Source: an uncultured Methanomicrobiales archaeon (GTDB taxonomy: Archaea; Halobacteriota; Methanomicrobia; Methanomicrobiales; Methanospirillaceae). From it: DNA of 61,412 nt. Every line of letters begins with the position of its first letter. Position 1 is the stretch's first letter. Of this stretch, positions 2,543 to 17,533 are shown one piece after another. Made by a program: the position numbers and the translations under genes. The stretch is from the NCBI GenBank assembly GCA_903926075.1, contig CAIYHQ010000052.1:1-61412 (forward strand), given 5' to 3'. The notes under the pieces were generated by a model. It was not told the DNA's origin and did no database searches. It saw nothing but the letters and a program-made list of their open reading frames with translations.

Positions 2543-3967
2543 ATGAAAAGAAATTCAATTTTGTTTTTAGTATGTTTTATATGCATGTTAATGGTTATCC
2601 CGGCAGTAGTTTCGGGAGCACCCCCGACACTGGTTGCGAACAACATAGGTAAAATCTCAGGATTAAATCTTACCTTGGCAACTCCAACGATGAAAATATT
2701 GAAGCCACAAACGATAACTGTGATATCAGATTGTCAAAAATGCAATAACAACTGTGATTTAAATGCCGTCAATTATTCCGCATATGCCGGTTGTAAAGAA
2801 TATTGCGAATTTGTCTACGGTACCTGCCAGAGCCTTCCGATAACTCCTGAAAATTGCATTCAATGCAACAATCAATGTAATGCACACTCAATGGTAGACA
2901 ATGACAGATTTGCTTTTGCTCAGTGTAGGGAGAAGTGTTCTGCAACTTTTGGAAGTGAATGTGGTACCAATAAATATTGGACACCTCTTACATGCCCTGA
3001 CTGCCAGAATAACTGTATTGGGTTAACAGGAAATGACGAGACTACATGTCTGCAGGACTGTGCAAATAAATTCGGGGACGCTAGTTGCAATATCAATTAT
3101 TTGAATTACACGATTGCCACAGTAACATCTAAATACACTGGAAAAACAATCAAGACTATTCCACAAATCACAAAAAAACAGTATCCAACCACACTTCCAA
3201 CGACGATAAGATTTAAACCACAAACGTTATCATTGCCAGTAGATTGTCAGGATTGTTATATTAAGTGCGATCGCGATCTCCTGCCTAATCAGTTGTATAG
3301 GACTTGCAGGCAATATTGCCTGGCACTCCATGGGACCTGCCTGAACCCCCCGGTAACACCTCTAAATTGTCTTCAATGCCAGGATCAGTGTTCTATGAAT
3401 TTAAGTGTAAAAAATGACAGAAATGCTTTTGTCCAGTGCAGAGAGAAATGCTCGGCATCTTATGGAAGTGAATGTGAGACCAATACATATTATTCACCGG
3501 TTTCATGCCCTGACTGCCAGAATATGTGCACTGGGTTAACTGGAAATGATAAAACAGTGTGTCTACAGAACTGTGTGAATAAATTTGGGGAAGCCAGTTG
3601 CAATATTTACACTATAGGTTACACTTTTGTCGCTGCTACTCCTGAATACCCTGATAAGACGATCCAGATTATTCCACAAATCACAAGTCAACAGTATCCA
3701 ACCCTTAATTTACCTGTTGACAGAATTATTGGAGATAATACGGGTGGGCGGACAGTCCAGAATCAGCCCGCTTCTACGCCAGTTTTACCAACAATTAACA
3801 GGGGTATATTCATTGGAGGTGGGGACCAGTTGAAACCTCAGACACAGATAGTCAGTAATTCAAATTTTGGGACAATCGGACGAGTGTTTATGTCAAACGT
3901 GAGTACTGGAAACGTGACCCGCAATGCTACATCTGTTGTTGTAAACACAACAATGACAAAGAAGTAA
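2543..3967 (+). CDS. Secreted cysteine-rich repeat protein
   Basis: A 474-residue protein with a signal peptide (basic start, hydrophobic residues 5-24, AxG-like cleavage near 26). The mature part has a tandem duplication, residues about 64-215 and 235-386. Each copy has three modules of the form C-x2-C-x3-C-x(10-15)-C-x3-C-x(6-8)-C. The modules fall at 64-95, 105-140, 151-182, 235-266, 276-311 and 322-353, giving 36 cysteines. The last 90 residues are Cys-free, Thr/Asn-rich and have N-glycosylation sequons. The cysteines could form disulfides or bind metal; I do not recognise a named family. The ATG is preceded by gagggaga (2531-2538). A T-rich stretch after the stop (about 3982-4010) may terminate transcription. 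Confidence 0.8.
   Translation: MKRNSILFLVCFICMLMVIPAVVSGAPPTLVANNIGKISGLNLTLATPTMKILKPQTITVISDCQKCNNNCDLNAVNYSAYAGCKEYCEFVYGTCQSLPITPENCIQCNNQCNAHSMVDNDRFAFAQCREKCSATFGSECGTNKYWTPLTCPDCQNNCIGLTGNDETTCLQDCANKFGDASCNINYLNYTIATVTSKYTGKTIKTIPQITKKQYPTTLPTTIRFKPQTLSLPVDCQDCYIKCDRDLLPNQLYRTCRQYCLALHGTCLNPPVTPLNCLQCQDQCSMNLSVKNDRNAFVQCREKCSASYGSECETNTYYSPVSCPDCQNMCTGLTGNDKTVCLQNCVNKFGEASCNIYTIGYTFVAATPEYPDKTIQIIPQITSQQYPTLNLPVDRIIGDNTGGRTVQNQPASTPVLPTINRGIFIGGGDQLKPQTQIVSNSNFGTIGRVFMSNVSTGNVTRNATSVVVNTTMTKK
2732..3700 (+). repeat. Tandem internal duplication of a hexacysteine-module triplet
   Basis: Unit 1 is about 2732-3187 and unit 2 about 3245-3700 inside the Cys-rich gene. They share long matching peptides such as CREKCSA, GSEC, CPDCQN, GLTGND, NKFG and ASCNI in the same order, as well as clear DNA similarity. 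The duplication has diverged most in the first module of each unit. Confidence 0.75.
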
Positions 3968-4098: not shown

Positions 4099-4578
4099 AT
4101 GAAAATTTGTTGTATATTTCATTCATATTCCGGGGTAACCCGTAACGTCTGCATAAAACTTAAGAACGAATCAGGTTCTGACCTATTCGAGGTTAAACCC
4201 CTGAACGAATACTCAAAACTGACTGCTTATACAAAGGGATGCTTACGAGCCAGAAAAGGAGAGAAAGACAGTATAGACCATGAGTCAATTGATATTTCGT
4301 CCTACGACCTTGTTATTATCGGGACACCCGTCTGGGCATGGAAAACAACGCCAGTTATTAACGCAGCTGTTAATGCATTAGAAGGAGGTGAAGGAAAAAA
4401 GGCAATAATATTTGCCACATGCGGAGGTCAACCCGGAGAGTCACTTAGAATACTTAAAAAAGCCGTCGAAGAAAAAGGGCTGACGGTTATTGGTGAAGTA
4501 ATGATGACAAAAAATGATATCAATGAAAAGACGGAACAACTGGTAAAATTAGTAAAAGATACGGCGAGTAATTTATAA
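4099..4578 (+). CDS. Small flavodoxin-like protein
   Basis: A 159-residue short-chain flavodoxin. The start MKICCIFHSYSGVTRNV carries the FMN phosphate-binding loop SYSGVTRN. The segments VIIGTPVWAWKTTPVI and ATCGGQPG match the flavin-ring loops of flavodoxin_1/4-like proteins. The frame is open from 3973, but the ATG at 4099 has a purine-rich site (gatagagg, 4083-4090) ahead of it and gives the family N-terminus, so I start there. It lies 28 bases before a PqqD-like gene and just upstream of a radical SAM gene. A role as electron donor for reducing the [4Fe-4S] cluster is plausible but inferred. A general redox role is equally compatible. Confidence 0.85.
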   Translation: MKICCIFHSYSGVTRNVCIKLKNESGSDLFEVKPLNEYSKLTAYTKGCLRARKGEKDSIDHESIDISSYDLVIIGTPVWAWKTTPVINAAVNALEGGEGKKAIIFATCGGQPGESLRILKKAVEEKGLTVIGEVMMTKNDINEKTEQLVKLVKDTASNL

Positions 4579-4606: not shown

Positions 4607-4939
4607 GTGAATGGCAGTCTTATAAACTATAATAAACCCATCCAAAACCCTTCTGTGTTCTCACGCCCTATCTTTGATGACAATATTCTTCTTGTAAACT
4701 GTGATACAGGCGCATCACTTGCACTCAATAGTACAGGGAAACTTATCTGGAGTTTGTTTGATGGCAAAAGGACTGAGATGGAGATAGTTGCAAAGGTTTG
4801 TGAGAACTTCAAAAATGTTCCGGATAATGTCTCTCTTGATGTTACTTCCCTGATCTCGGCACTTTCAGAACAAGGTTTTATCGGGTTTGAGATAGATGCA
4901 GATTCCCTGGAAAATGGGAGGCTGAATTATCACGGATAG
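4607..4939 (+). CDS. Stand-alone PqqD-like (RRE) domain protein, copy 1
   Basis: A 110-residue PqqD-family protein. The family signature is visible as D-G-A-S-x-A-L-N-x-T-G-K-x-I-W about residues 33-48, then an acidic helix and a C-terminal two-helix part ending in GFIGFEID. PqqD-like domains bind the leader peptide of ribosomally made, modified peptides and present it to the modifying enzyme. Start is GTG at 4607; the site ahead of it is weak. It is closely related to the protein at 6404-6700 on the other strand (both have NPSV then FDDN then LVN-DTG-SL-LN). The precursor-like peptide begins 68 bases downstream. Confidence 0.85.
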   Translation: MNGSLINYNKPIQNPSVFSRPIFDDNILLVNCDTGASLALNSTGKLIWSLFDGKRTEMEIVAKVCENFKNVPDNVSLDVTSLISALSEQGFIGFEIDADSLENGRLNYHG

Positions 4940-5007: not shown

Positions 5008-5130
5008 ATGTCTGAAAAAAAAGATGTTTTGCCTGAATACCAGCCACCACAAGTTATGAAGATTAATGACCTGAACAACGGAAGTGGTTTTCAACCTTGT
5101 GGAAACGGTTCTGGAGAGCACACAACTTGA
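5008..5130 (+). CDS. Candidate RiPP precursor peptide 1
   Basis: A 40-residue peptide that begins with MSEKKDVLPEYQPP. Its leader KDVLPEYQPPQV-x-KI-x-DLN-x-GSG (residues 5-27) is shared almost exactly with the peptide at 8830-8961. After GSG at 25-27, the core is FQPCGNGSGEHTT, with one Cys at 31. Both peptides keep C-[GN]-N-G-S in the core although the rest differs. A conserved leader with a variable Cys-containing core, between PqqD-like genes and a radical SAM/SPASM gene, is the classic layout of a RiPP precursor. The leader Tyr-x-Pro-Pro-x-Val-x-x-Ile-x-x-Leu resembles leaders read by PqqD domains. The modification is unknown. The protein would be easy to miss because of its length. Confidence 0.75.
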   Translation: MSEKKDVLPEYQPPQVMKINDLNNGSGFQPCGNGSGEHTT

Positions 5131-5135
5131 TTACC

Positions 5136-5157
5136 ACCCATCTATAACGATGTGGGT
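5136..5157. other. Small hairpin between converging precursor and radical SAM genes
   Basis: Acccatc (5136-5142) pairs with gatgtgggt (5149-5157) around a 6-base loop, with a small bulge. It sits just after the stop of precursor 1 and 106 bases beyond the stop of the convergent radical SAM gene. No T-run follows on either side, so a terminator role is uncertain. Confidence 0.25.
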
Positions 5158-5262
5158 CCGATCACCACCAAATCATCATGCAACCTTTTTTGTTTTTCAA
5201 TAATAACCATTTTTGGTCTTGGGTATCTCAATAAAATTGAATCATTAATATTTTCAAATTCA

Positions 5263-6417
5263 CTATCGGAGCCTGTTCTTCGGAAATACTCCCTTATTAA
5301 AAGCCTCATTACATAGTCTCTGAGGAGAGACGAGGGCCCCTCCATTAACATAGTTGTCAGCTACACAACCAGTCCGGCAGGACTGTGCATGGATACATGA
5401 GCCACAAATTCCAGGATATTCTTTAATATTTGCTAGATCTGAACGCAACTTTAGGAGAACAGGGTGAGAAATCCATATATCCCTGATACTGTCTTTTCCA
5501 AGAAGTCCGTAAACCAGTTCTGAAATCGTCTCACCTATGCCACAGAGAGCTACTTCGCCTGTTCCCAGAATTCCAAGTATACTACTGACACCACAATCGC
5601 ATACTTTTCCTTTTGTCCTCCACAGCTCTTTATATGGCGTAAGAGCCATGGGCAAAGTTAAAATTAGCGGAATTGGAGATATTGGCCTGAGCTTATCATT
5701 GACATATGAGCCAAGTGCAAGATACCCTTCAAGGTCAAACGTCTCTCCATTCTCATACATATTAAGACCCCTGCCGGCAGCAGTAACCGGATTAAACTTA
5801 ACGGAAGCAGCATTGTGTTCAGCTGCGAGCATGACAAGTTCTTTCATTCGCCCCATATTTCCCAGGTGAACAGACATGATGACCTGACAGTTGGTATATC
5901 CAGCATCAACAATTGAATCAAGTCCGGAAATAGTTCTGTGAAAGGCACCCTTTACCCCGCGAAAAGCATCATGCTCAGCAGCAATAGGAGAATCGAGGCT
6001 CACCGATATGAAACCCATCTTCGTCTTTTCTTTAAGATAACGGGCAATATCTGGTGTAATGAGTGTCCCATTTGTCTCCATAGAAAGAAAAAGCCCTTCG
6101 GAAGATAACATATCAACGACTTTCAGGAACTGATGATGGAGCATTGGCTCACCACCGGTTAATTTAATTGTGCAAAGACCAAGTGACTTCGCTTCGATGA
6201 CTGCTTTATGTAGAGCATCAGGATCAACAGTTGTACCAGAAACCGCTTTCTCTTTTCCTGAAAATTTTGGGTTAACCCAACAATGCCTACAACGAAGATT
6301 ACAACTTGATGAGAGGTAAACATATAAGGATTTTAATGGTGGGACCCCTTCAGGCAGATTAAGGTCATTTGTCATTACAGAACCAGAATCAGGATAAGGT
6401 AGATCACAAAGTGTCAA
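5263..6417 (-). CDS. Radical SAM/SPASM peptide-modifying enzyme
   Basis: A 384-residue protein with the radical SAM cluster motif C39-x3-C43-x2-C46 (SCNLRCRHC) and the SAM-binding GGEP at 88-91. The C-terminal SPASM region has C273/C275, G-x4-C292, then C338-x2-C341-x5-C347-x3-C351 and C369, enough for two auxiliary [4Fe-4S] clusters. Such enzymes make thioether or C-C crosslinks or epimerise residues in peptides. TTG at 6417 has agaggg about 6 bases ahead and overlaps the PqqD-like gene by 14 bases, so the two are probably co-translated. ATG at 6375 is the alternative. The nearest substrates are the two small peptides at 5008 and 8830. Which bond it makes cannot be read from the sequence. 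Confidence 0.9.
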   Translation of the reverse strand: MTLCDLPYPDSGSVMTNDLNLPEGVPPLKSLYVYLSSSCNLRCRHCWVNPKFSGKEKAVSGTTVDPDALHKAVIEAKSLGLCTIKLTGGEPMLHHQFLKVVDMLSSEGLFLSMETNGTLITPDIARYLKEKTKMGFISVSLDSPIAAEHDAFRGVKGAFHRTISGLDSIVDAGYTNCQVIMSVHLGNMGRMKELVMLAAEHNAASVKFNPVTAAGRGLNMYENGETFDLEGYLALGSYVNDKLRPISPIPLILTLPMALTPYKELWRTKGKVCDCGVSSILGILGTGEVALCGIGETISELVYGLLGKDSIRDIWISHPVLLKLRSDLANIKEYPGICGSCIHAQSCRTGCVADNYVNGGALVSPQRLCNEAFNKGVFPKNRLR

Positions 6418-6700
6418 TAAAACCCTCTGCTGAAAGTGTTAAAATCACTGAATTAACATCTTGTGCAACCGAATCCGGTACGTTCTTAAATTCTTTGCAG
6501 ACCTGCGCGACTATCTCTTCTTGTGTTAATTTGCCATCTAACAAGTTCCAGATAACCTTTCCTGATTTATTCAGTACGAGAGATTTACCAGTATCTCCGT
6601 TTACGAGCACTAGATTGTCATCAAAGGTTAGATGTGACATTACAGAAGGGTTTTTATTAAATTTTTCATGTGACCTGATTTCATAATTCACGGATATCAC
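6404..6700 (-). CDS. Stand-alone PqqD-like (RRE) domain protein, copy 2
   Basis: A 98-residue PqqD-family protein with the signature D-T-G-K-S-L-V-L-N-K-S-G-K-V-I-W and a C-terminal helical part ending ILTLSAEGFIDTL. It is translated just ahead of the radical SAM gene and overlaps it by 14 bases, so it is the most likely leader-binding partner of that enzyme. Start is GTG at 6700; a second in-frame GTG lies 9 bases later. It is a close paralogue of copy 1 at 4607-4939 in inverted orientation; the pair flanks the first precursor and the radical SAM gene. Confidence 0.87.
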   Translation of the reverse strand: MISVNYEIRSHEKFNKNPSVMSHLTFDDNLVLVNGDTGKSLVLNKSGKVIWNLLDGKLTQEEIVAQVCKEFKNVPDSVAQDVNSVILTLSAEGFIDTL

Positions 6701-6766
6701 TTTAATGTACAGCTGTCATTTATATGAAGTACTTATCTTTCCAGAGGACGACCTGTTCTGCAATAT

Positions 6767-8605
6767 ATGGGAAATTCACCACATTCAGAATTTAATCTCC
6801 ATGAGATGCTGACATCTTCAAAAGCCGAAATTCCACGGGCAATAAGACTAGTCTTTAAATTCACGCCCGGGTGGACAATTGCAAACATCTTTCTTATGAT
6901 AATTCTCGGTCTTTTACCACTCGCATCCCTGTATATAACCAAACTCCTTGTTGATACGGTTACTGCCGGAATCACTGCCAGTGATAAAACAGCTGTTTCA
7001 ACAGAACTTTTTATTGTTATCATTGCAGCAGTGGTTATATCGCTTCTCACTGCTTGCTTTAGAGCAATTTCTACTTATGTGACTGAAGTCCAGTCTCTTG
7101 AGATGACAGATGGGATCTCTGATCTCATTCATAGCCAGTCTATCGCACTTGATCTCGCGTACTATGAAAACCCAGAATATCAGGATACCTTACACAGGGC
7201 TCAGACTGAAGGAGCCTCCCGACCGGGAAAGATAGTAAATGATCTGGTGCTGATTATTCAAAATTGCATCTCTATCATTGCTGTTGGATCTCTCATCCTT
7301 TCATTCTCAGCCCTTGCAGGTATTATTCTCATCGCATCTGCGGTTCCAGCCATGATTGTCAGGTTATGGTATTCAAGGCAACTATATTTTCTAAAACAAG
7401 ATCAAACTGAATTGAACCGTAAAAGTTTTTATTATCACATCATGCTCACGCATTCACATTATGCCAAAGAGAACCGACTTTTTTCCCTCGGAACATTCTT
7501 CAGAGAGTTGTACAACAGCACTCAGGATTTAATCAGGATCTCAAAATTAGCAATTTCCCGGTCAAAAGCATTTTGGGAGGTAATTACTCAGGGTTTTGTT
7601 ACTGCTGCAGTGTTTGGTTCATTTACTGTCATCGCAATTATGACACTTAATGGAAAGATAACCCTGGGTGACATGGTAATTTACTTTATGGGTTTTCAGA
7701 TGTGTGTAGGGTACATTCAGACTATATTTTCAAGTCTTAATACGCTCTATGAGGACCATCTTTTTTTAAGGGATTTTTTCAAGTTTCTTGATATAAGACC
7801 ATTAATTAGAGCACCCGATAACCCAATACCACTCCCTGAAGACTCGATAGAGAAAATTCAATTAAATTCTATTTGTTTCACTTATCCAGGAGCACATACC
7901 CCGGCATTGGAGGACATTTCAATTACCATCAGGAAAGGGGAAGTAATTGCTTTTGTAGGCGAAAATGGTGCTGGAAAAAGCACTCTTATTAAATTGCTGT
8001 GTAGACTTTATCTTCCTGATTCCGGGTCTATTACAGTTGATAATATAGATCTTAACTACATTGATCCAGAAATATGGAGACGGCGGCTATCAGTACTTTT
8101 TCAGGATTATATTCGGTACCAACTGACCATAGAAGATAATATCAGGGTAGGGGATATCGGGCGTCCGGATGGTCCGGAAAACGTTGAAAAATCTGCTCAT
8201 AAATCAGGAGCAGACAAAACAGTGGAACGACTTCCAAACGGTTACCAGACGGTGTTAGGGAAATTTTTTAGTGGGGGTCATGATATAAGCACTGGTGAAT
8301 GGCAAAAAATTGCATTATCCCGGGCTTTTTTCAGGGATGCTGAATTTATTTTTCTCGATGAACCTGCAAGTTCGCTTGATGCTCTTGCCGAAGCAGAGAT
8401 TTTTCAAAAGTTCAGGGAGGTTATTCAGAATAAAACCGCTATTATTATCAGTCACCGCTTTTCTACCGTTCAAATGGCAGATCGAATCTATGTTATCGAA
8501 TACGGAAAACTGATTGAATTTGGCTCACATACTGATCTCATGATATTAAACGGACGATACGCTGAAATGTTTAAAATTCAATCTGATCCATATATTGAAA
8601 AATAA
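6767..8605 (+). CDS. ABC exporter, fused membrane and ATPase domains
   Basis: A 612-residue half-transporter. The N-terminal part has about six membrane helices (about residues 40-320). The ATPase part has Walker A GENGAGKST near 398-406, Q-loop FQDY, signature STGEWQK in place of LSGGQ near 508, Walker B FIFLDEP near 530 and the H-loop SHR. There is no C39 peptidase domain at the N-terminus. It would work as a homodimer in the cell membrane. It diverges from the PqqD/radical SAM pair with a 66-base gap and lies ahead of the second precursor, so export of the modified peptide is the obvious guess. The Ser-Thr-Gly signature is a known variation in peptide/lipid exporters but deviates from the consensus. 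Confidence 0.92.
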   Translation: MGNSPHSEFNLHEMLTSSKAEIPRAIRLVFKFTPGWTIANIFLMIILGLLPLASLYITKLLVDTVTAGITASDKTAVSTELFIVIIAAVVISLLTACFRAISTYVTEVQSLEMTDGISDLIHSQSIALDLAYYENPEYQDTLHRAQTEGASRPGKIVNDLVLIIQNCISIIAVGSLILSFSALAGIILIASAVPAMIVRLWYSRQLYFLKQDQTELNRKSFYYHIMLTHSHYAKENRLFSLGTFFRELYNSTQDLIRISKLAISRSKAFWEVITQGFVTAAVFGSFTVIAIMTLNGKITLGDMVIYFMGFQMCVGYIQTIFSSLNTLYEDHLFLRDFFKFLDIRPLIRAPDNPIPLPEDSIEKIQLNSICFTYPGAHTPALEDISITIRKGEVIAFVGENGAGKSTLIKLLCRLYLPDSGSITVDNIDLNYIDPEIWRRRLSVLFQDYIRYQLTIEDNIRVGDIGRPDGPENVEKSAHKSGADKTVERLPNGYQTVLGKFFSGGHDISTGEWQKIALSRAFFRDAEFIFLDEPASSLDALAEAEIFQKFREVIQNKTAIIISHRFSTVQMADRIYVIEYGKLIEFGSHTDLMILNGRYAEMFKIQSDPYIEK

Positions 8606-8645
8606 ATTCCATATGTTATTGGTTAAGGAATGGCATTGATGACAA

Positions 8646-8672
8646 GCAAATTATATAGACTTTATAATTTGC
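8646..8672. repeat. Perfect 10-bp inverted repeat, 7-base loop
   Basis: Gcaaattata (8646-8655) is perfectly complementary to tataatttgc (8663-8672). It lies 40 bases after the ABC exporter stop and about 158 bases before the start of precursor 2. It could be a weak A/T-rich terminator hairpin, or a dyad operator. The region 8606-8829 otherwise holds no credible gene apart from a possible GTG extension of the peptide (from 8752). Confidence 0.5.
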
Positions 8673-8794
8673 GGGTGCATAAGGAAAATTGGATAGTATA
8701 CAGCAGTTTTTATGATAATTTCAACAATGAAGCACTTAAATTTGTTTACATGTGTTTGGACGGGATAAATGTTTGGCAGAACTGAATTGTTGCA

Positions 8795-8829
8795 AAATGT
8801 TTATCCGTGAGTGCGGTATACAGATACAT
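8795..8829 (+). promoter_or_regulatory. 5' flank of precursor peptide 2, shared with precursor 1
   Basis: The word aaatg at 8795-8799 is followed by 30 bases to the ATG, the same spacing as before precursor 1 (4973-5007), with 17 of 30 matching positions. The segment tgtttat (8798-8804) is a possible TATA element. This shared flank supports choosing the ATG at 8830 over upstream GTG 8752. Confidence 0.35.
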
Positions 8830-8961
8830 ATGCCTATCGATAAAGATGTTTTACCTGAATATCAACCCCCACAAGTCACGAAGATTTATGACCTGAACAA
8901 GGGGAGCGGCGGGAGTATTGGTACTGAGTGTAATAACGGTTCTAATGACGTTAAAAGCTAA
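8830..8961 (+). CDS. Candidate RiPP precursor peptide 2
   Basis: A 43-residue peptide. Residues 5-16 (KDVLPEYQPPQV) are identical to precursor 1, followed by KI-x-DLN-x-GSG at the same positions. The core GSIGTECNNGSNDVKS has one Cys at 34 and keeps the C-x-N-G-S word of the first peptide. The frame is open from a GTG at 8752, which would add a Cys-rich N-terminal extension; alignment with precursor 1 favours the ATG at 8830. It lies between the ABC exporter and the third PqqD-like gene. Two precursors with a shared leader and different cores suggest one enzyme acting on several products. Confidence 0.75.
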   Translation: MPIDKDVLPEYQPPQVTKIYDLNKGSGGSIGTECNNGSNDVKS

Positions 8962-9067
8962 TCTTAAGACGGGATCAACGCTACCATCAATTCTGGTAAT
9001 ACAGTGATACAACAATTATAGGTGTATTATAGATGAATCACAAAAAATTTTTATTTTTTAGACGTCC

Positions 9068-9346
9068 ATGATCTCAGGTCGGGTTATTGTTAATCCTGAT
9101 ATATCATGCAGAGTCGAGTCTGATGACTATGCTCTCTTATTCAACCCTGACACCGATAATACAGTACTCATTGACCATTCAGGACTTTTAATCTGGAGAT
9201 TCATTGATGAGCCTAGGAGCATCAATGATATTATATCATATTTGAAGGGCTGTTTTTCAAACTGTCCTGACATTGATACCCTTGAGCAGGATATTATCAA
9301 ATATCTTAGTGACCTTATTCCTGAATTTGTTCTAGAGATCTTCTGA
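9068..9346 (+). CDS. Stand-alone PqqD-like (RRE) domain protein, copy 3
   Basis: A 92-residue PqqD-family protein with LLFNPDTDNTVLIDHSGLLIW as the signature region and a helical C-terminal half containing two Cys (CFSNC). It is more distant from the other two copies than they are from each other. Its stop overlaps the start of the kinase/peptidase fusion (the ATG at 9346 lies in the TGATG junction), so the two are translationally coupled. That suggests it delivers the leader to the fusion protein rather than to the radical SAM enzyme. No ribosome site precedes the ATG; an A/T-rich stretch about 20-25 bases upstream fits a leaderless mRNA. Confidence 0.82.
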   Translation: MISGRVIVNPDISCRVESDDYALLFNPDTDNTVLIDHSGLLIWRFIDEPRSINDIISYLKGCFSNCPDIDTLEQDIIKYLSDLIPEFVLEIF

Positions 9347-10893
9347 TGCAAAAAAATGTAATTTTTTCCTCACCCTTTTTCAGCCTTGGATTTGCAGACG
9401 GTCAGAAATTTATTCTTCATCCAACCGACAACCAGGCTGCAGAAATAGTCAACATGATGTCAGATGTGATGCATCTCTCACCAGGGACTGTCGGGCGGGA
9501 GATCTTTGTTTGTGTATCTGATAAAAAAGAGTTTCAGATTAACAACCTTAAAAATGGCGGGCCTTTGGTTTGCTGCCTCCTTCCAGGGACAAACCCAAAT
9601 ATTAGAGAAATTCAGATGTCCGAACTCGCAAGGTACATAGCTGCACAGATGATACCCGGCGGAGGTATGCTTATCCATGGTGGGCTTATAAGGCATGGGG
9701 GACAGGGATTTATTCTTGCTGCTCCGGGAGGGACAGGAAAAACAACCGCATGCAATCGGCTTCCAGAATCATGGGATGCATTGAGTGATGATGCTACCAT
9801 GGTCGTACAGACAGATGAGGGTAGATATCTTGCTCATCCATGGCCCACATGGAGCCGTTTTCTCGATGGTGGTTCGGGTGGAGACTGGAATGTTGAAGAG
9901 GCAGTGCCCCTCTCATCCATATTTTTCTTACAGCGTTCAGAAATTGATAATGTTGAGCCACTATCAAAGGTAAATGCAACTGCATTTCTCATGGAGTCAA
10001 TACGACAGGTTATGTTAACTCCAAGGATTGGAAAACTGCATTCTGATAGTATTGAAGCTATCCTGAAAATGAGTTTCCCTCATATAGAAAGACTAATACT
10101 GTCGATACCAGTCCAGATTCTTCAGATAAGTTTATCTGGGAATTATTGGGAAGGGATTTTTCAGAGTCTTAAAAAAACAGAAGTTCCAAAACATCCTGCT
10201 CCTTTATTTTCACAGATTAAGCATATAGATAAAAATAGTAACATATTTAATGACCAGAGCATTCCGGTTATTTATTCAGGCCCAAGCATGAATCCTTCCT
10301 TTTTGGATTCTGATCTTTTAGAGGTGGTTCCATATGGAAGGAGACCATTTAAGGTTGGAGATGTAATCTACTTTTTCTCTCCTGTCAAAGAGACCCATAT
10401 AATCCATAGAATTGTTAGCATATCTGAAAACGGAGTTCAGACACGAGGGGACAATAACCCTGCTCCTGACCCTGAACTTGTATTGCCAGGTGAAATTATA
10501 GGAAGAGTAATAGCGGTATCAAGAACATCCGGAACATGGAAAGTAACAGGTGGAACAAGCGGGAGGATTCTTCAGGCGTTTCTTCTGGCCCGGAAGTCAA
10601 TACTCGCTAAAATAGATTATATCATATTGAGTAAAAATCCAGTCGGAGTTTTTGTGCACATCATCAGATGTTGCTTCGCATATATAATGAGACCTAGATA
10701 TGTACTATTTTCTACACGATATTCATTTTTCTTAAAATTATACATAGGTAATCGTTTGATTGGAGATTACAATACCATTAGGATGACCTGGATGATCAGA
10801 TCACCATTCTCTCTTTTCATAGATAGAACTCAACTGCCCACATTAAAACCTCCTCTTCCGAAAATTAGATTTTTAAGGGAACTGGGTCATTAA
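9346..10893 (+). CDS. HPr kinase-like domain fused to an S26-type peptidase
   Basis: A 515-residue two-domain protein. Residues about 1-275 resemble HPr kinase-like proteins of RiPP loci: a Walker A loop APGGTGKTT at 126-134 (Lys132), then ALSDDATMV with the usual acidic pair. Residues about 305-400 look like an S26 signal-peptidase core: SGPSMNP with Ser314, GDVIYF, then H354 in HIIHR and D369 in RGDNN. That is the Ser/His/Asp set of archaeal/ER signal peptidases, without the bacterial Lys. There is no obvious membrane anchor in front of the peptidase. The C-terminal 115 residues are unassigned. Neighbours imply action on the precursor, for example phosphorylation or leader removal. The first half recalls ScmC of the cassette named SynChlorMet; that is from memory. 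Confidence 0.8.
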   Translation: MQKNVIFSSPFFSLGFADGQKFILHPTDNQAAEIVNMMSDVMHLSPGTVGREIFVCVSDKKEFQINNLKNGGPLVCCLLPGTNPNIREIQMSELARYIAAQMIPGGGMLIHGGLIRHGGQGFILAAPGGTGKTTACNRLPESWDALSDDATMVVQTDEGRYLAHPWPTWSRFLDGGSGGDWNVEEAVPLSSIFFLQRSEIDNVEPLSKVNATAFLMESIRQVMLTPRIGKLHSDSIEAILKMSFPHIERLILSIPVQILQISLSGNYWEGIFQSLKKTEVPKHPAPLFSQIKHIDKNSNIFNDQSIPVIYSGPSMNPSFLDSDLLEVVPYGRRPFKVGDVIYFFSPVKETHIIHRIVSISENGVQTRGDNNPAPDPELVLPGEIIGRVIAVSRTSGTWKVTGGTSGRILQAFLLARKSILAKIDYIILSKNPVGVFVHIIRCCFAYIMRPRYVLFSTRYSFFLKLYIGNRLIGDYNTIRMTWMIRSPFSLFIDRTQLPTLKPPLPKIRFLRELGH

Positions 10894-10955: not shown

Positions 10956-12188
10956 TCAAAGGTAATCAATAAAACTCCACCAGCGCCGGATATGGGCAAG
11001 GTAAGGATCCCAACTGCTTTCTGAACGTCGATATTCGATCATCAGATGCGAAGGAGGCAGGATAAAACGCCCACAATATTTCAGTTTCTCTACAAATCCG
11101 GGCAACCTTTTCAAACGGAGATGGAATACTGCGAGAAATGAGGTCTCCTGAATTGCAGCATACTTCCACATTCGTTCTTCCCATTCTGATGGAGAAGGCC
11201 ATGTCGAGAAATCGGAAAATTTTGAAGGTAAAGTATTTCCAGACCAGAGAATAGCTTCTTTGAGAGCAATCTCAACAGGAATTCGGGTATGATGTGTAAC
11301 TGAAGATCTTTCGAGGGATTTCCAGTCGTCATTTATAGTGAAATCCCGTATCAATCGTGAAATATCCACTATCCAGTCCAGTCGCCGGTGGTTATGAAGT
11401 ATAACATTGTGGAACACCAGGAACTGGAGATGATCTTCGGGATGCAGGGTATCAAAGATAAGATCTTTGGATTGGACATGAATTTTTCTTTTCAGGGAAT
11501 TATCTAACCAGTTTTCTGGAAAATATCCAAAGCCAAAGTCTGCCATCCAGTGAATTTCAACCATTACTCCGATTTTTTCAGGTAAAAATGCCTGGTGGTG
11601 GAACGCATAGCGGGAAATGTGGTATGTAAGGGCAGTACTGGAATACCCGAGTGTTCCCATCACCTTTTCACAATGTAAAAAATCATCTGGTCTAATTAGA
11701 AGATCGATATCAGTCGACTGGCGCATTGCCAGGTCAGGGTATATCGTTCTTCCAAGAGCTGGACCTTTGACCAGCAGAACTGGAATTCCTGCTTCCTGAA
11801 ACTTCAATAGGATCTGGCGAATCTGATCTCCCATAAAAATGTTTCGGGCTGTACCTGCAAAGAGGGCATTTTTAAAAACAGACAGGGTTTTTTCAGGTGG
11901 CTGGAACTCTTTATGCCATGACAAAATATGCGAAGCTATGAAGGGAATTATCAAATGCGAACCAATAATTTTGATAAAATCATCCCATTCTTCAGGTCCG
12001 CACATCGGAGGCGTACAGGGAATATCTCTTATCGCACCGATCAAGTAAATAATGAGATCGTCACGGATTGAAAAAAGTGCATTGGGTGGATTTCCCATTA
12101 GTGGGTAATTTGCATGCCATTTTTGAATAAAGGCAGGTAATGTGGTGAGATCATCAGGCTGCGCATGTGATTCAAAAACAGTTTTCAT
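10956..12188 (-). CDS. PF14907-type nucleotidyltransferase-fold protein
   Basis: A 410-residue protein of the NTP_transf_5 family. The core LLVKGPALGRTIYPDLAMRQSTDIDLLIRPDDF carries the D-x-D pair (DID) expected for nucleotidyltransferase metal binding and the K-G upstream of it. Members are common beside PqqD-like and HPr-kinase-like genes in lasso-peptide and other RiPP loci and in polysaccharide loci, with unproven substrates. It converges on the fusion gene and is transcribed from the tRNA side. The region between the stops (10894-10955) has no further gene. It may add a nucleotide to the peptide or to a sugar; this is inference. Confidence 0.85.
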   Translation of the reverse strand: MKTVFESHAQPDDLTTLPAFIQKWHANYPLMGNPPNALFSIRDDLIIYLIGAIRDIPCTPPMCGPEEWDDFIKIIGSHLIIPFIASHILSWHKEFQPPEKTLSVFKNALFAGTARNIFMGDQIRQILLKFQEAGIPVLLVKGPALGRTIYPDLAMRQSTDIDLLIRPDDFLHCEKVMGTLGYSSTALTYHISRYAFHHQAFLPEKIGVMVEIHWMADFGFGYFPENWLDNSLKRKIHVQSKDLIFDTLHPEDHLQFLVFHNVILHNHRRLDWIVDISRLIRDFTINDDWKSLERSSVTHHTRIPVEIALKEAILWSGNTLPSKFSDFSTWPSPSEWEERMWKYAAIQETSFLAVFHLRLKRLPGFVEKLKYCGRFILPPSHLMIEYRRSESSWDPYLAHIRRWWSFIDYL

Positions 12189-13603: not shown

Positions 13604-16600
13604 CTACATAAAATCTGCGAGTCCCAGCTGTTGTTCCTTTGGTTGCCCAAAGGTAGATTCAATAGCGAGAAGTATCACTTCAACCCTTTGTTTCGTATAG
13701 AGCGAAACCTTGTATTTTGTACAGATATCGCGTGACATCTCAAGATATTTTTTAACCGACCCTTCATGTACAGTAGGTATGATATTTCCGTTGCATTTTG
13801 AACATTTTCCTGCAAGAGGGACCCTCCTGTAACTTGTGTTACATTTAGAACAGCGAAACTTCTGCTTTGAGAATGCTGAAAGGTTGCCCATAAGATCGCG
13901 GATAAAATGCGTGTTAAGAACTCTTTCTGCAACATCATCTACATCTACAGCCCGGATTTTCTCGGCAAGCGAAAGCTCAGCCTCAAGTTTCTCAAGCATT
14001 GACTCCATCTGGGTATACATCGATTCTTTTGGACCGAGCGAAATATCTGACGTCTCATGAGTATACGAGAAACCTTCAACGGACTCCGGTTTACCAAGCC
14101 TGTGATCAACACGATCAATCAGAGCCTCAACATCTTTTGGATGGGCGTAAAGAAGGGCTTTTTTGTAAAGTTCAAGTGGGTAAAACCTGCATACATCAAT
14201 ATTATGGCTCTCTTTGTCGATCTCTTTTGGATCTATACGGGTTGTGAGCACAAGGGGAGCATCCATAAGCCCGCCACGCGTTTCAGGCAGAAATGCCCTT
14301 GAGAAGTTAAGGAGCCCGTCGAGGAGCAGCATAATACAGTCCTCGTCGCCGTCACACTGGCCGGTAAATACCCCGTTAGCAAGAACTGTATGTTCTTCTG
14401 CAACAGTCAGGCAAAACACCCTCTCCTCTGTTGCCGGTACTATTTCTCTCTTTTTTATACGATCAGAGATTACTGCATTTCCCACAAAAACCGGAACTGA
14501 ATCCCCTTCATTCACTTCGATTGCCCGGACTTTCCTAAGGTAACTGAGATCCCACACAAGCATGGCATGGTCAGGTGTGACAATAAGCACATTCCCCCTG
14601 CCGGTCTCAAACCTGTACAGTCCTTCCGGTGCTTTATGTACTGAAACCGAGGTTATTCGCCTGATATGCACAATACCGCCGGTATCGACTGTCCGGGTAT
14701 AGTATGGACGGACCGGGTCTGAATAATATGTACCGAGCCGGTCTAACCCGGGCCTCGCAAGATCAAAGTTCTCAAGCACGAACCTGCGGATCTGGATTTT
14801 TTTCCAGACAGAACCATCATAGACTTCAATTTCGGTATCTCCAAAAAAACAGTTCCTTCGTTTTGCAGCATGAAAGAAAGGGTGGGCATAACCGACGTTA
14901 GCAGTACAAAAACCGATAATACGTGATAAAACTCCTGCACTTGTATGTGGTGCAAGACCTATTACAAGGTGTCCAAGGAGGTCATCGCGGTTTTCCACGT
15001 TGTAAAATGGAGGGAGAGAGTAGACCTTTTCCAGAAGTTCATCAATAAAGTGGGCTACCTGAATCAGGTACTCGGCACAGTGATCCGAGAGAAGGATATC
15101 CTGTGTCCTAAGTTCAAGGACCTGGTCTTCATGTGTAAGTGGGACACCATCTGTATCCACCTCATATCCAAGGTTCAACAAGGTTTCTACCCGGACTCCC
15201 GTCTCTTTTGGAGTGAAATGTGTAAGAGGCAGATCGATCATATCATATCTGACAGTTCCATCTTTAAAGACATAGACCTCATGCTTTGCCCTTAAAATTC
15301 CTTTGCTGATATCCTCAACAGCCTTTTCACGAGAAGTAAGACCTTTAACACCCTTTACGAGCGGTACCATCTCCTCTCTGAACCCAAGTTTTTCCATTAT
15401 AGAGAGATATTCAGATTTAAGGTTGAAGATTAGGTTCTGACTTGAAGAGAGAGGAATTCCACACAGATCACAAGTTTCACCTCTCCCTTCCCTGCCACAC
15501 TTCTGGCAGCTGAAAACAGGGTCAGTATGAGAATTACAATCACACAGATTTCTGAATGTAATTTTTCCGCATGAAGGACACCTCCTGCGTCCTGTCTGGA
15601 TGGTAAGAGTGCCTCCGTCTTTCAAAACATTAGTGGTGAAGGTCTTTGCCTCCTGAAATGATCTCCTCGAACCTCCTGCTTCACCAAGTGGAAAGAGGAC
15701 ATGTGGTGGAGGGTTCATCTTTCGTGGCCTGGATTTTCCAGGTCTCCCCATTCTTCCGCCAATCCTGGTCCCTGATTTTGAACGGAGTTTTATTCCTGAA
15801 AGTTCAGTGATATAGAGTAGAGGATCAGATTCACTTGTAGGGGGGAGGGATCTTCTTTGATTTAAATTTCCATTAAGACCAAGACACTCAAGAAATACAA
15901 TATAATTACTTATACAGATCTTGTCTACTGAGATAGTATGAGGCAAAAGGATCTCTTCAATAATTTCCTTGATATCCCGTTCATAAGGGAGTATTAACGT
16001 ATTACCTTCCAATTTCCCTTTTTCTGAAACAAACGAGTGCAGGGACTGTATTTGCTCAATCGTTAGATCGTCCCAGAGATATGTATAGTCAGGGTGAAGA
16101 TAGCCACCATTTTTAGTAAGAGCGAGTGCAGCTTCTTCAGTTTCAGGCTGCTCACCTTCACACTCCTGACTCCACCATTCATGGCAGTATACAGAGGGTA
16201 CTAAAGGATGGTTATTCTCAAGAAATTCCCCAAAACTGATAAGTAATTCCCCTACATCAAGAATGCACTCAACATTACCGGAAATTTCCTTTGCAGACTT
16301 CGGGTCATCAACTCTCCTGACCTCTCCTCCCTTGAGCCTCACGGTGGGACCCTCAATAGAATCAACAGGAACTATCCCTGCTGCTTTTCCGGGCCTCTCT
16401 ATCTTCATCTGAGTCCCTACTGCAAGAAAGTCTCCAAGAATATGCATGGTTGCCGGGTTCAGCCCAGCTGCCGCATATCCTGTATTGCGTGACCGGCCAT
16501 ACCTGAGCCGGAAACCACCTTTTCTCATGGGATATGCAAAAACCGGCCTCCCACCGATGAGATCATCAAGGTACTTGTATTTCGGTTTGATTGAGACCTT

Positions 16601-17458
16601 CTCATCACTTCCGGCAGGCATTGCCCCTGCAACAAATGTGTCAAGCCAGTCCCAACCGTCGAGGCCAAGCTTTTTCACATGTTTCTGAACTTTTGGCGCT
16701 TTTAGTGCAATCCCTTCGCCTATTACGAGAGCCATTCCTCCCCTGATTGCATTTGTCTCTACCCTGGCAAGGTCCCGGTAACCACTGACCTCTGCCTTTT
16801 CAGTCCCTTCTCCATCTACACAGACCGGACAATTTCTTACAATCAGGCGGATTTCATCATCATTTGGGAGATACTGGAGTTTTGTTACGGTATTGTATTG
16901 TTTGATCTCCTCAATGTAACGCTCGACTTCTTCATCACGCGGTTTATATGCAGCAAGGCCAAGACCCCGGCGCACATAATCACCCACTAGCACTGACAGA
17001 GCCTGTGCAGTACCACCTGCACTCCGTATGGGTCCGGCATAAAAAATCTTCAGATATTCAGTCCCATCGTCATTTTTACCCAGGCTTACCTTTGCTATTC
17101 CTTCCGTCGGAGCTGCTACTACTCCTTCTGTCAGAATTGCCATTGCCGTCCTTATAGCATGGTCAAGGGTCTCAACTGTTGAGGTGCTCCCAAACCTCCT
17201 TGCAACAAAATCATCCCCTATCCGGAGTGCAACTTCTTCGCGGGAGATAGTTGCTTCAAGTTCCCTGATACGGGCCGATATACCTTTAATTCCAAGAAGT
17301 GCCTCAACTCTGTCTGCAAGGTCAGTCGCAACAGGTATTTCAACTTCCGTACGTGGGTCAAGTCCTCTGGACCGGGCTGATTTTGCAACAGAATACGCAG
17401 CATCCAACCCAATATTGAGTCTCTTCTGATACCCAACCATAGACTCTGACCAATCCAT
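13604..17458 (-). CDS. polC: DNA polymerase II (family D) large subunit DP2, with intein
   Basis: The catalytic subunit of the euryarchaeal replicative D-family polymerase, partner of DP1 encoded at 54102. The frame is open to 17506 (1300 residues), but the family N-terminus starts at the Met in [14 protein letters not shown], so I use ATG 17458 (1284 residues, 1119 without the intein). Visible signs: KFRCSKCN and CSKCN zinc pairs near the C-terminus, further zinc-finger pairs CPSCGK, CQKCGR and CDLCG mid-protein, and the conserved block [24 protein letters not shown], which is split by the intein at CDGDED. That block holds catalytic Asp residues. A HEAT-repeat gene lies just upstream and a cysteine desulfurase downstream, all on the same strand. 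Confidence 0.97.
14357..14851 (-). other. Pol-II mini-intein (165 residues)
   Basis: The intein runs from Cys1 (residue 870 from the 17458 start) in [13 protein letters not shown] to Gln165 in NGVFTGQ, followed by extein Cys of CDGDED. Block A (CFFGDTEI), block B with TPDHAML (T..H), and block F/G with [21 protein letters not shown] are all visible. There is no LAGLIDADG endonuclease. The last residue is Gln instead of Asn, as known for other Pol-II inteins. It interrupts an essential active-site block of DP2, so it must splice for the polymerase to function. Confidence 0.92.
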
Positions 17459-17533
17459 ACCTAGCCTTTCCTTCGGGAGGGAATTTATCTTTATGGAATA
17501 TCCCATACGCAGTACTTGACAGAAAAAAGTAGA

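Follow-up and report, generated by a model that had tools for sequence, protein, structure and literature searches.

Two short open reading frames in a stretch of DNA from an uncultured Methanomicrobiales archaeon (61,412 nucleotides, referred to below as the window) raised the question of whether they encode RiPP precursors and, if so, which modification the neighbouring genes would install. The original prediction took them for RiPP substrates with an identical leader and a divergent core. Both reading frames were found where predicted, with the following layout:

5008-5130, + strand: precursor peptide 1, open reading frame of 40 amino acids, MSEKKDVLPEYQPPQVMKINDLNNGSGFQPCGNGSGEHTT followed by the stop; leader block 5020-5088, single core unit CGNGSGEHTT 5098-5127, stop codon TGA 5128-5130
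8830-8961, + strand: precursor peptide 2, open reading frame of 43 amino acids, MPIDKDVLPEYQPPQVTKIYDLNKGSGGSIGTECNNGSNDVKS followed by the stop; leader block 8842-8910, single core unit CNNGSNDVKS 8929-8958, stop codon TAA

The peptides share the block KDVLPEYQPPQV-x-KI-x-DLN-x-GSG at an equal distance from the start and diverge after these 23 residues, apart from C-[GN]-N-G-S. The leader is thus the same block in both peptides, as predicted, but full identity did not hold: 20 of the 23 residues agree and three pairs (M/T, N/Y, N/K) differ. At the DNA level, the leader blocks are 84% identical, with 11 base differences, eight of them silent and three residue-changing (NG86: dN 0.057, dS 1.05). 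Random substitution would give 8.3 residue changes, and the probability of three or fewer is 0.00015 (kappa 2) or 0.0019 (kappa 5). The leader of both peptides is therefore constrained as a protein and is not merely a recent DNA copy.

When the source genome (3.14 Mb, 97% complete) was searched with peptide 1, the only matches were peptide 1 itself and peptide 2 (E = 2e-9), which places the similarity of the two peptides far from chance. That search, together with one of 60 relatives in which the best other match (E = 0.0165, in G038) adjoined a homologue of the radical SAM enzyme ScmF, excluded that the leader is a recurrent housekeeping domain. Frameshifts were likewise discarded as the origin of the core differences, as the cores are mutually in frame and have the codons AAC GGT TCT in common. 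A longer form of peptide 2 starting at GTG 8752 was rejected because ATG 8830 aligns with ATG 5008, each standing four residues before KDVLP. Both peptides end in Ser or Thr.

A Pfam and NCBIfam scan of both peptides yielded no known precursor family. The surrounding genes were related to families that NCBIfam names SynChlorMet (Scm) and describes by the models TIGR04248 (ScmD), TIGR04249 (ScmC), TIGR04250 (ScmE), TIGR04251 (ScmF) and TIGR04252 (ScmA). The cassette comprised:

4607-4939, + strand: PqqD-like leader-binding protein a (TIGR04248, 2e-15, 56.7 bits, cutoff 100; PF05402, 5e-13)
5263-6417, - strand: ScmF-like radical SAM/SPASM peptide maturase, 384 amino acids (TIGR04251, 334 bits, cutoff 400)
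6404-6700, - strand: PqqD-like leader-binding protein b, overlapping the start of ScmF (TIGR04248, 1.5e-14; PF05402, 7e-14)
6767-8605, + strand: ABC exporter, permease and ATPase without a C39 peptidase domain (family models)
9068-9346, + strand: PqqD-like leader-binding protein c (TIGR04248, 1.5e-11; PF05402, 1e-6)
9346-10893, + strand: fusion of ScmC with an S26 domain (TIGR04249, 143.9 bits, cutoff 125; TIGR02228, 57.7, cutoff 51.85)
10956-12188, - strand: nucleotidyltransferase-like protein, NTP_transf_5 (PF14907, 2.4e-43), recurrent in Scm loci

The fusion exceeded the ScmC cutoff. The three PqqD-like proteins, at 57, 54 and 44 bits, stayed below the ScmD cutoff of 100, yet ScmD was their best family; proteins a and b are 58% identical. 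ScmF stayed below its equivalog cutoff, with homology over its full length. Neither peptide matched ScmA (cutoff 35) at E-values up to 1, despite a leader homologous to that of precursors in sister loci. The ABC exporter is 78% identical to its counterpart in locus L066.

Other genes lie near the cassette. Just upstream, 2543-3967 (+) encodes a protein of 474 residues that is rich in Cys, probably has a signal peptide and contains two similar repeats rich in C-x2-C. A flavodoxin-like protein (4099-4578, +) stands beside the first PqqD gene; it was rejected as a cassette member, having no counterpart in Scm loci except one distant match in L121. At 13604-17506 (-), a DNA polymerase II large subunit carries an intein-like insert in its KRRN-CDGDED region, apparently without an endonuclease domain.

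Relatives were drawn from 232 genomes of the order, in which Methanoregula and Methanospirillum are among the named members, and from GTDB contigs, giving about 100 loci. The nearest ScmF relatives, 57-67% identical (G038, G165, G194, G196, G212 and G217), carry homologous precursors beside ScmF, and their leaders YSPPRVVRIGDLSDGKG and YVPPRVMRLGDLNEGAG match YQPPQVMKINDLNNGSG. About 73 precursors, both window peptides included, were collected by leader and core patterns (regular expressions), a procedure that favours look-alikes and can miss divergent precursors: none were found for L068/L072 or L069/L074. The collection spans archaea, Thermodesulfobacteriota, Chloroflexota, Acidobacteriota, Bacteroidota, Omnitrophota, Nitrospirota, WOR-3, Aminicenantes and others, and S26, NTP_transf_5 and ABC neighbours recur across the relatives. 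TIGR04252 matched 8 of 25 aligned precursors (best 6.6e-10).

Across this collection the leader follows the pattern [YWFH]-x2-P-x-[VIL]-x2-[IL], and the core is built from successive units of about ten residues, C-x(2,3)-G-[STNG]-x-[A..]-..., with a Cys-Cys spacing of mostly 10 or 11. Gly stood at +3 or +4 after 429 of the 462 core Cys (93%) in 73 precursors, and at +3 after 74% of the core Cys with eight following residues, compared with about 19% per position after shuffling; the collection demanded at least one C-x(1-4)-G, and this requirement by itself produces part of the excess in peptides with few Cys and much less of it in those with many. Ala is also favoured three residues after the Gly in relatives, a position taken by E or D in the window cores. 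Judged by this pattern, the single Cys of C-x-N-G-S is one copy of the C-x(2,3)-G unit that is repeated 2-15 times in relatives. The three-unit core of L129 (Bacteroidales) opens with CHNGSGEHST, almost all of core 1.

More elaborate arrangements also occur. In L059 (3709-19150) and L060 (3517-15190) the Scm array is expanded: several precursors are long, with about ten Cys units, PqqD genes are repeated, and additional ScmE-like copies are present. L144 (8305-9505, +), from a Bacteroidetes bacterium, has four tandem two-unit precursors.

A conserved leader, a variable core, and an adjacent leader-binding protein and modifying enzyme, as expected of a RiPP locus, were thus found in the genes and their homologies. 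Together with the roughly 73 family relatives, the surrounding genes strongly support the predicted RiPP precursors with a kept leader and a changing core, and we consider it very probable that the two peptides are RiPP precursors of a Scm-like cassette. This part of the original prediction stood; the SynChlorMet name, the absence of ScmE and the apparent shortening of peptide 2 by stop codons had been missed.

ScmF showed no sign of decay. It kept 46 of the 47 positions that are invariant in 37 relatives, as do sister ScmFs, and its branch length of 0.33 is ordinary beside those of its nearest clade members (0.03-0.58). Its clade of 13 is distinct and well supported (100/98), includes archaeal, WOR-3 and Desulfobulbus sequences, and holds the ScmC-S26 fusion relatives. 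ScmF has the cluster-binding Cys expected of a SPASM radical SAM maturase of sactipeptides: its CX3CX2C motif and C275, C292, C338, C341, C347, C351 and C369 are invariant. A sequence-profile search of solved structures placed the sactisynthase SkfB first (4e-22). The AlphaFold2 model (pLDDT 91, pTM 0.90) was closest to SuiB with peptide, with SkfB, BlsE, CteB, PqqE, anSME and ChlB also among the nearest folds. Ahead of its radical SAM domain, ScmF carries no domain that would bind a leader, and the PqqD-like proteins are therefore the likely leader binders.

The 515-residue ScmC-S26 protein combines an HPr-kinase/PEPCK-like domain, in which alignment showed H111, K132, D148 and D149 to be kept, with a signal-peptidase-like domain that keeps S314, H354 and D369. 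Kinases of lasso-peptide clusters need H, K, D and D residues (PMC9266682). Matches in the PDB were SEC11C (1e-11) and HprK (0.006). In a predicted model of moderate quality (pLDDT 71, pTM 0.52), a fold search found ScmC to resemble the PEPCK/HprK fold, and residues 278-305, at the position of a signal peptidase's N-terminal membrane anchor, formed no helix. On this model, a role of the S26 domain as a cytosolic leader protease is therefore plausible. ScmC and S26 were fused in 16 open reading frames and in both domain orders, which argues for a step common to both domains: the window has ScmC-S26, and the reverse order was seen in L126 (5188-6801), L127 (2229-3923), L132 (10882-12507) and L138 (10965-12659).

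Signal peptidases prefer small residues at -3 and -1, and a small-x-small motif is favoured by S26 proteases. A leader ending in small-x-small, G-S-G in the window, would therefore suit such a protease. G-x-[GA] occurred within eight residues before the first Cys in 39 of 73 precursors, versus 21.4 ± 3.4 in shuffled sequences. The C-terminal Ser of the cores is not conserved family-wide, so a kinase target is not fixed by the family pattern. Neither 'signal peptidase' nor 'S26' appears as a term in a review of the proteases that remove RiPP leaders (PMC10885120). Elsewhere in the family, the S26 domains of the ScmC-S26 reading frames in L077 (7690-9492) and L078 (11839-13641) have lost the catalytic Ser and His (GSAMN, VRRVVS), and a second, separate S26 gene lies nearby.

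What sets the window apart is reduction. Its peptides, alone among the approximately 73 collected, have exactly one core unit each, of ten residues (2-15 units in the others). ScmE, the second radical SAM enzyme of the cassette and partner of ScmF, was missing both at the locus and elsewhere in the 97%-complete genome, where a search for a copy gave ScmF itself, at 24%, as the best match. Among 45 comparable loci (at least 4 kb on both sides of ScmF), 43 have ScmE; the second exception, L067, is a partial homologue, and a few of the loci are one contig fetched twice.

A further trace of reduction lies directly downstream of peptide 2:

8962-9018, + strand: stretch after the stop codon of peptide 2, in frame, reading S, stop, DGINATINSGNTVIQQL

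Scored with a PSSM of the core unit without its Cys position, the best unit in this stretch had P = 0.0034 (0.34% of random window reads), and the best two-unit sum was reached in 0 of 4000 random reads; the stretch had been spotted by eye before the test, yet it is the only natural place to look. It probably represents two decayed core units without their Cys, which makes it probable that peptide 2 was shortened from a longer core, the stops being read from one assembly. Such a remnant suggests that part of the core has lost its function. Extra units after the stop of peptide 1 were rejected, since the same test gave no unit-like score there (P 0.19 and 0.13). The TGA stop of peptide 1 occupies exactly the place in which the Cys codon (TGY) of a next unit would fall.

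Taken together, these observations would fit the following route. The two peptides would be ScmA-type precursors of a reduced Scm cassette, in which PqqD-like proteins would hold each precursor by its Y-Q-P-P-Q-V-x-K-I leader and offer the core to ScmF. Working without ScmE, ScmF would link the sulfur of the lone Cys to the Gly at +3 (C-x-x-G) and so form one four-residue thioether (sactionine) ring per window peptide. The S26 domain fused to ScmC may then remove the leader, probably after G-S-G, leaving about FQPCGNGSGEHTT and GSIGTECNNGSNDVKS; the ScmC kinase domain and NTP_transf_5 may phosphorylate or further tailor core Ser/Thr, and the ABC protein would export the product. The core would once have been longer, at least in peptide 2, and the loss of ScmE would have left a one-ring system, a history to which the stretch after peptide 2 in part attests. 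We regard this account as a whole, with a reduced Scm-type RiPP, one Cys-Gly thioether made by ScmF, and the protease, kinase and export steps, as fairly probable.

The position of the bond would have a precedent in streptosactin, in which Cys31-Gly34 and Cys25-Ser28 form sactionine rings, i.e. C-x-x-[GS] (PMC8172795). The C-x-x-G spacing and the SkfB and CteB precedents point to the same kind of bond. The chances that ScmF makes a Cys-Gly alpha thioether are about even. For other chemistry at the C-x-x-G unit (a non-alpha thioether, epimerisation, another change, or a Cys kept free), which we rate as possible but the poorer bet, speaks the diversity among SPASM fold neighbours (SuiB with a C-C bond, CteB with a thioether, PqqE, ChlB); Gly at +3 could also be structural instead of a bond acceptor. 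The preference of relatives for Ala at Gly+3, besides the Gly fixed at +3/+4, points the same way, but in the window cores that position is E or D rather than A. Any bond to the conserved Gly must sit at C-alpha, because Gly has no beta carbon, and streptosactin offers a direct C-x-x-G precedent against such alternatives. Whether ScmF could act unaided is a related matter. With ScmE present in nearly all comparable loci, ScmF alone may not suffice, and the main sactisynthase of thuricin CD alone has less than 5% of the paired activity (PMC12093266). A minimal Scm-type RiPP, with ScmF alone making the single Cys-Gly ring and the kinase-signal-peptidase fusion coupling tailoring to leader removal, is put forward only tentatively. 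That the peptides are no RiPP precursors at all, but small peptides with a regulatory or structural role, or else give rise to a redox cofactor resembling PQQ, is highly improbable: the PqqD-like partners and PqqE-like fold would fit a cofactor, but the cores lack the E-x3-Y motif of the PqqA type, leaders homologous to theirs, followed by C-x(2,3)-G cores, are found again next to ScmF in archaea and in many phyla of bacteria, and a predicted precursor family of NCBIfam recognizes part of the aligned set.

Another reading makes the cassette a decaying one, with ScmE lost, the precursors cut by stops, and either no mature modified peptide or one arising only as a by-product. The missing ScmE, the resemblance of the stretch after peptide 2 to two Cys-less units and the TGA of peptide 1 in the place of the next Cys are all consistent with it. 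However, the reading frames of ScmF, ScmC-S26, the ABC exporter, three PqqD genes and NTP_transf_5 are all uninterrupted, most base differences between the paralogous leaders are silent, and in each peptide the stop follows one complete core unit. We consider decay unlikely, and on the evidence of the genes a reduced but working system is clearly favoured over a dead one, because of the almost fully kept invariant positions and normal branch length of ScmF and because all other cassette genes are open. The chemical and decay alternatives overlap with the preferred explanation and with each other, and their likelihoods are not meant to sum to one.

Comparison with known systems gives the preferred reading, a reduced but working Scm-type RiPP, its closest parallels. 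Streptosactin (GggA/GggB, an StsB-type sactipeptide) likewise involves a SPASM radical SAM enzyme, and small unnested C-x-x-[GS] four-residue rings have been reported for it. It differs in being bacterial, in its leader, and in that no PqqD, kinase or S26 partner is described in the review consulted for it; the StsB model gives only 83 bits here against a cutoff of 625. Thuricin CD (TrnC/TrnD) pairs two radical SAM enzymes, as ScmE and ScmF may be paired in relatives, whereas in the window ScmF stands without its partner. Phosphorylated lasso peptides (PadeK/ThcoK; pseudomycoidin, PsmK/PsmN) share an H-K-D-D kinase and a nucleotidyltransferase-like partner. In the window, by contrast, the kinase is fused to S26 and stands alongside a radical SAM enzyme, and neither a lasso cyclase nor a B2 protease was present among the nine cassette proteins scanned.

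The Scm cassette itself is the nearest counterpart. Likenesses are a ScmC above cutoff, homologues of ScmF and ScmD, and precursors beside ScmF with the same leader and the same C-x-G core logic; differences are the missing ScmE, a ScmF and ScmD below cutoff, peptides that TIGR04252 does not recognise, a single core unit in place of 2-15, the presence of three PqqDs, and S26 fused to ScmC. By its profile matches, the locus is a divergent, reduced Scm variant, of which only ScmC qualifies under strict cutoffs; it would work like a Scm cassette and should not be filed as a complete one. The open literature (subscription journals lay outside the search), queried for the Scm name and accessions, contained no paper naming the family, and in this literature Scm product and chemistry appear uncharacterised. 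Usually, numerous Cys units per precursor and a pair of radical SAM enzymes make Scm biochemistry hard. With one Cys, one enzyme and two natural core variants, the window locus offers a simple test case for Scm chemistry. If the proposal is true, ScmF alone would be the crosslinking enzyme of a large family across methanogens and many bacterial phyla. The locus also suggests that the leader is likely removed by a protease of the signal-peptidase fold that is physically joined to an HPr-kinase-like domain.
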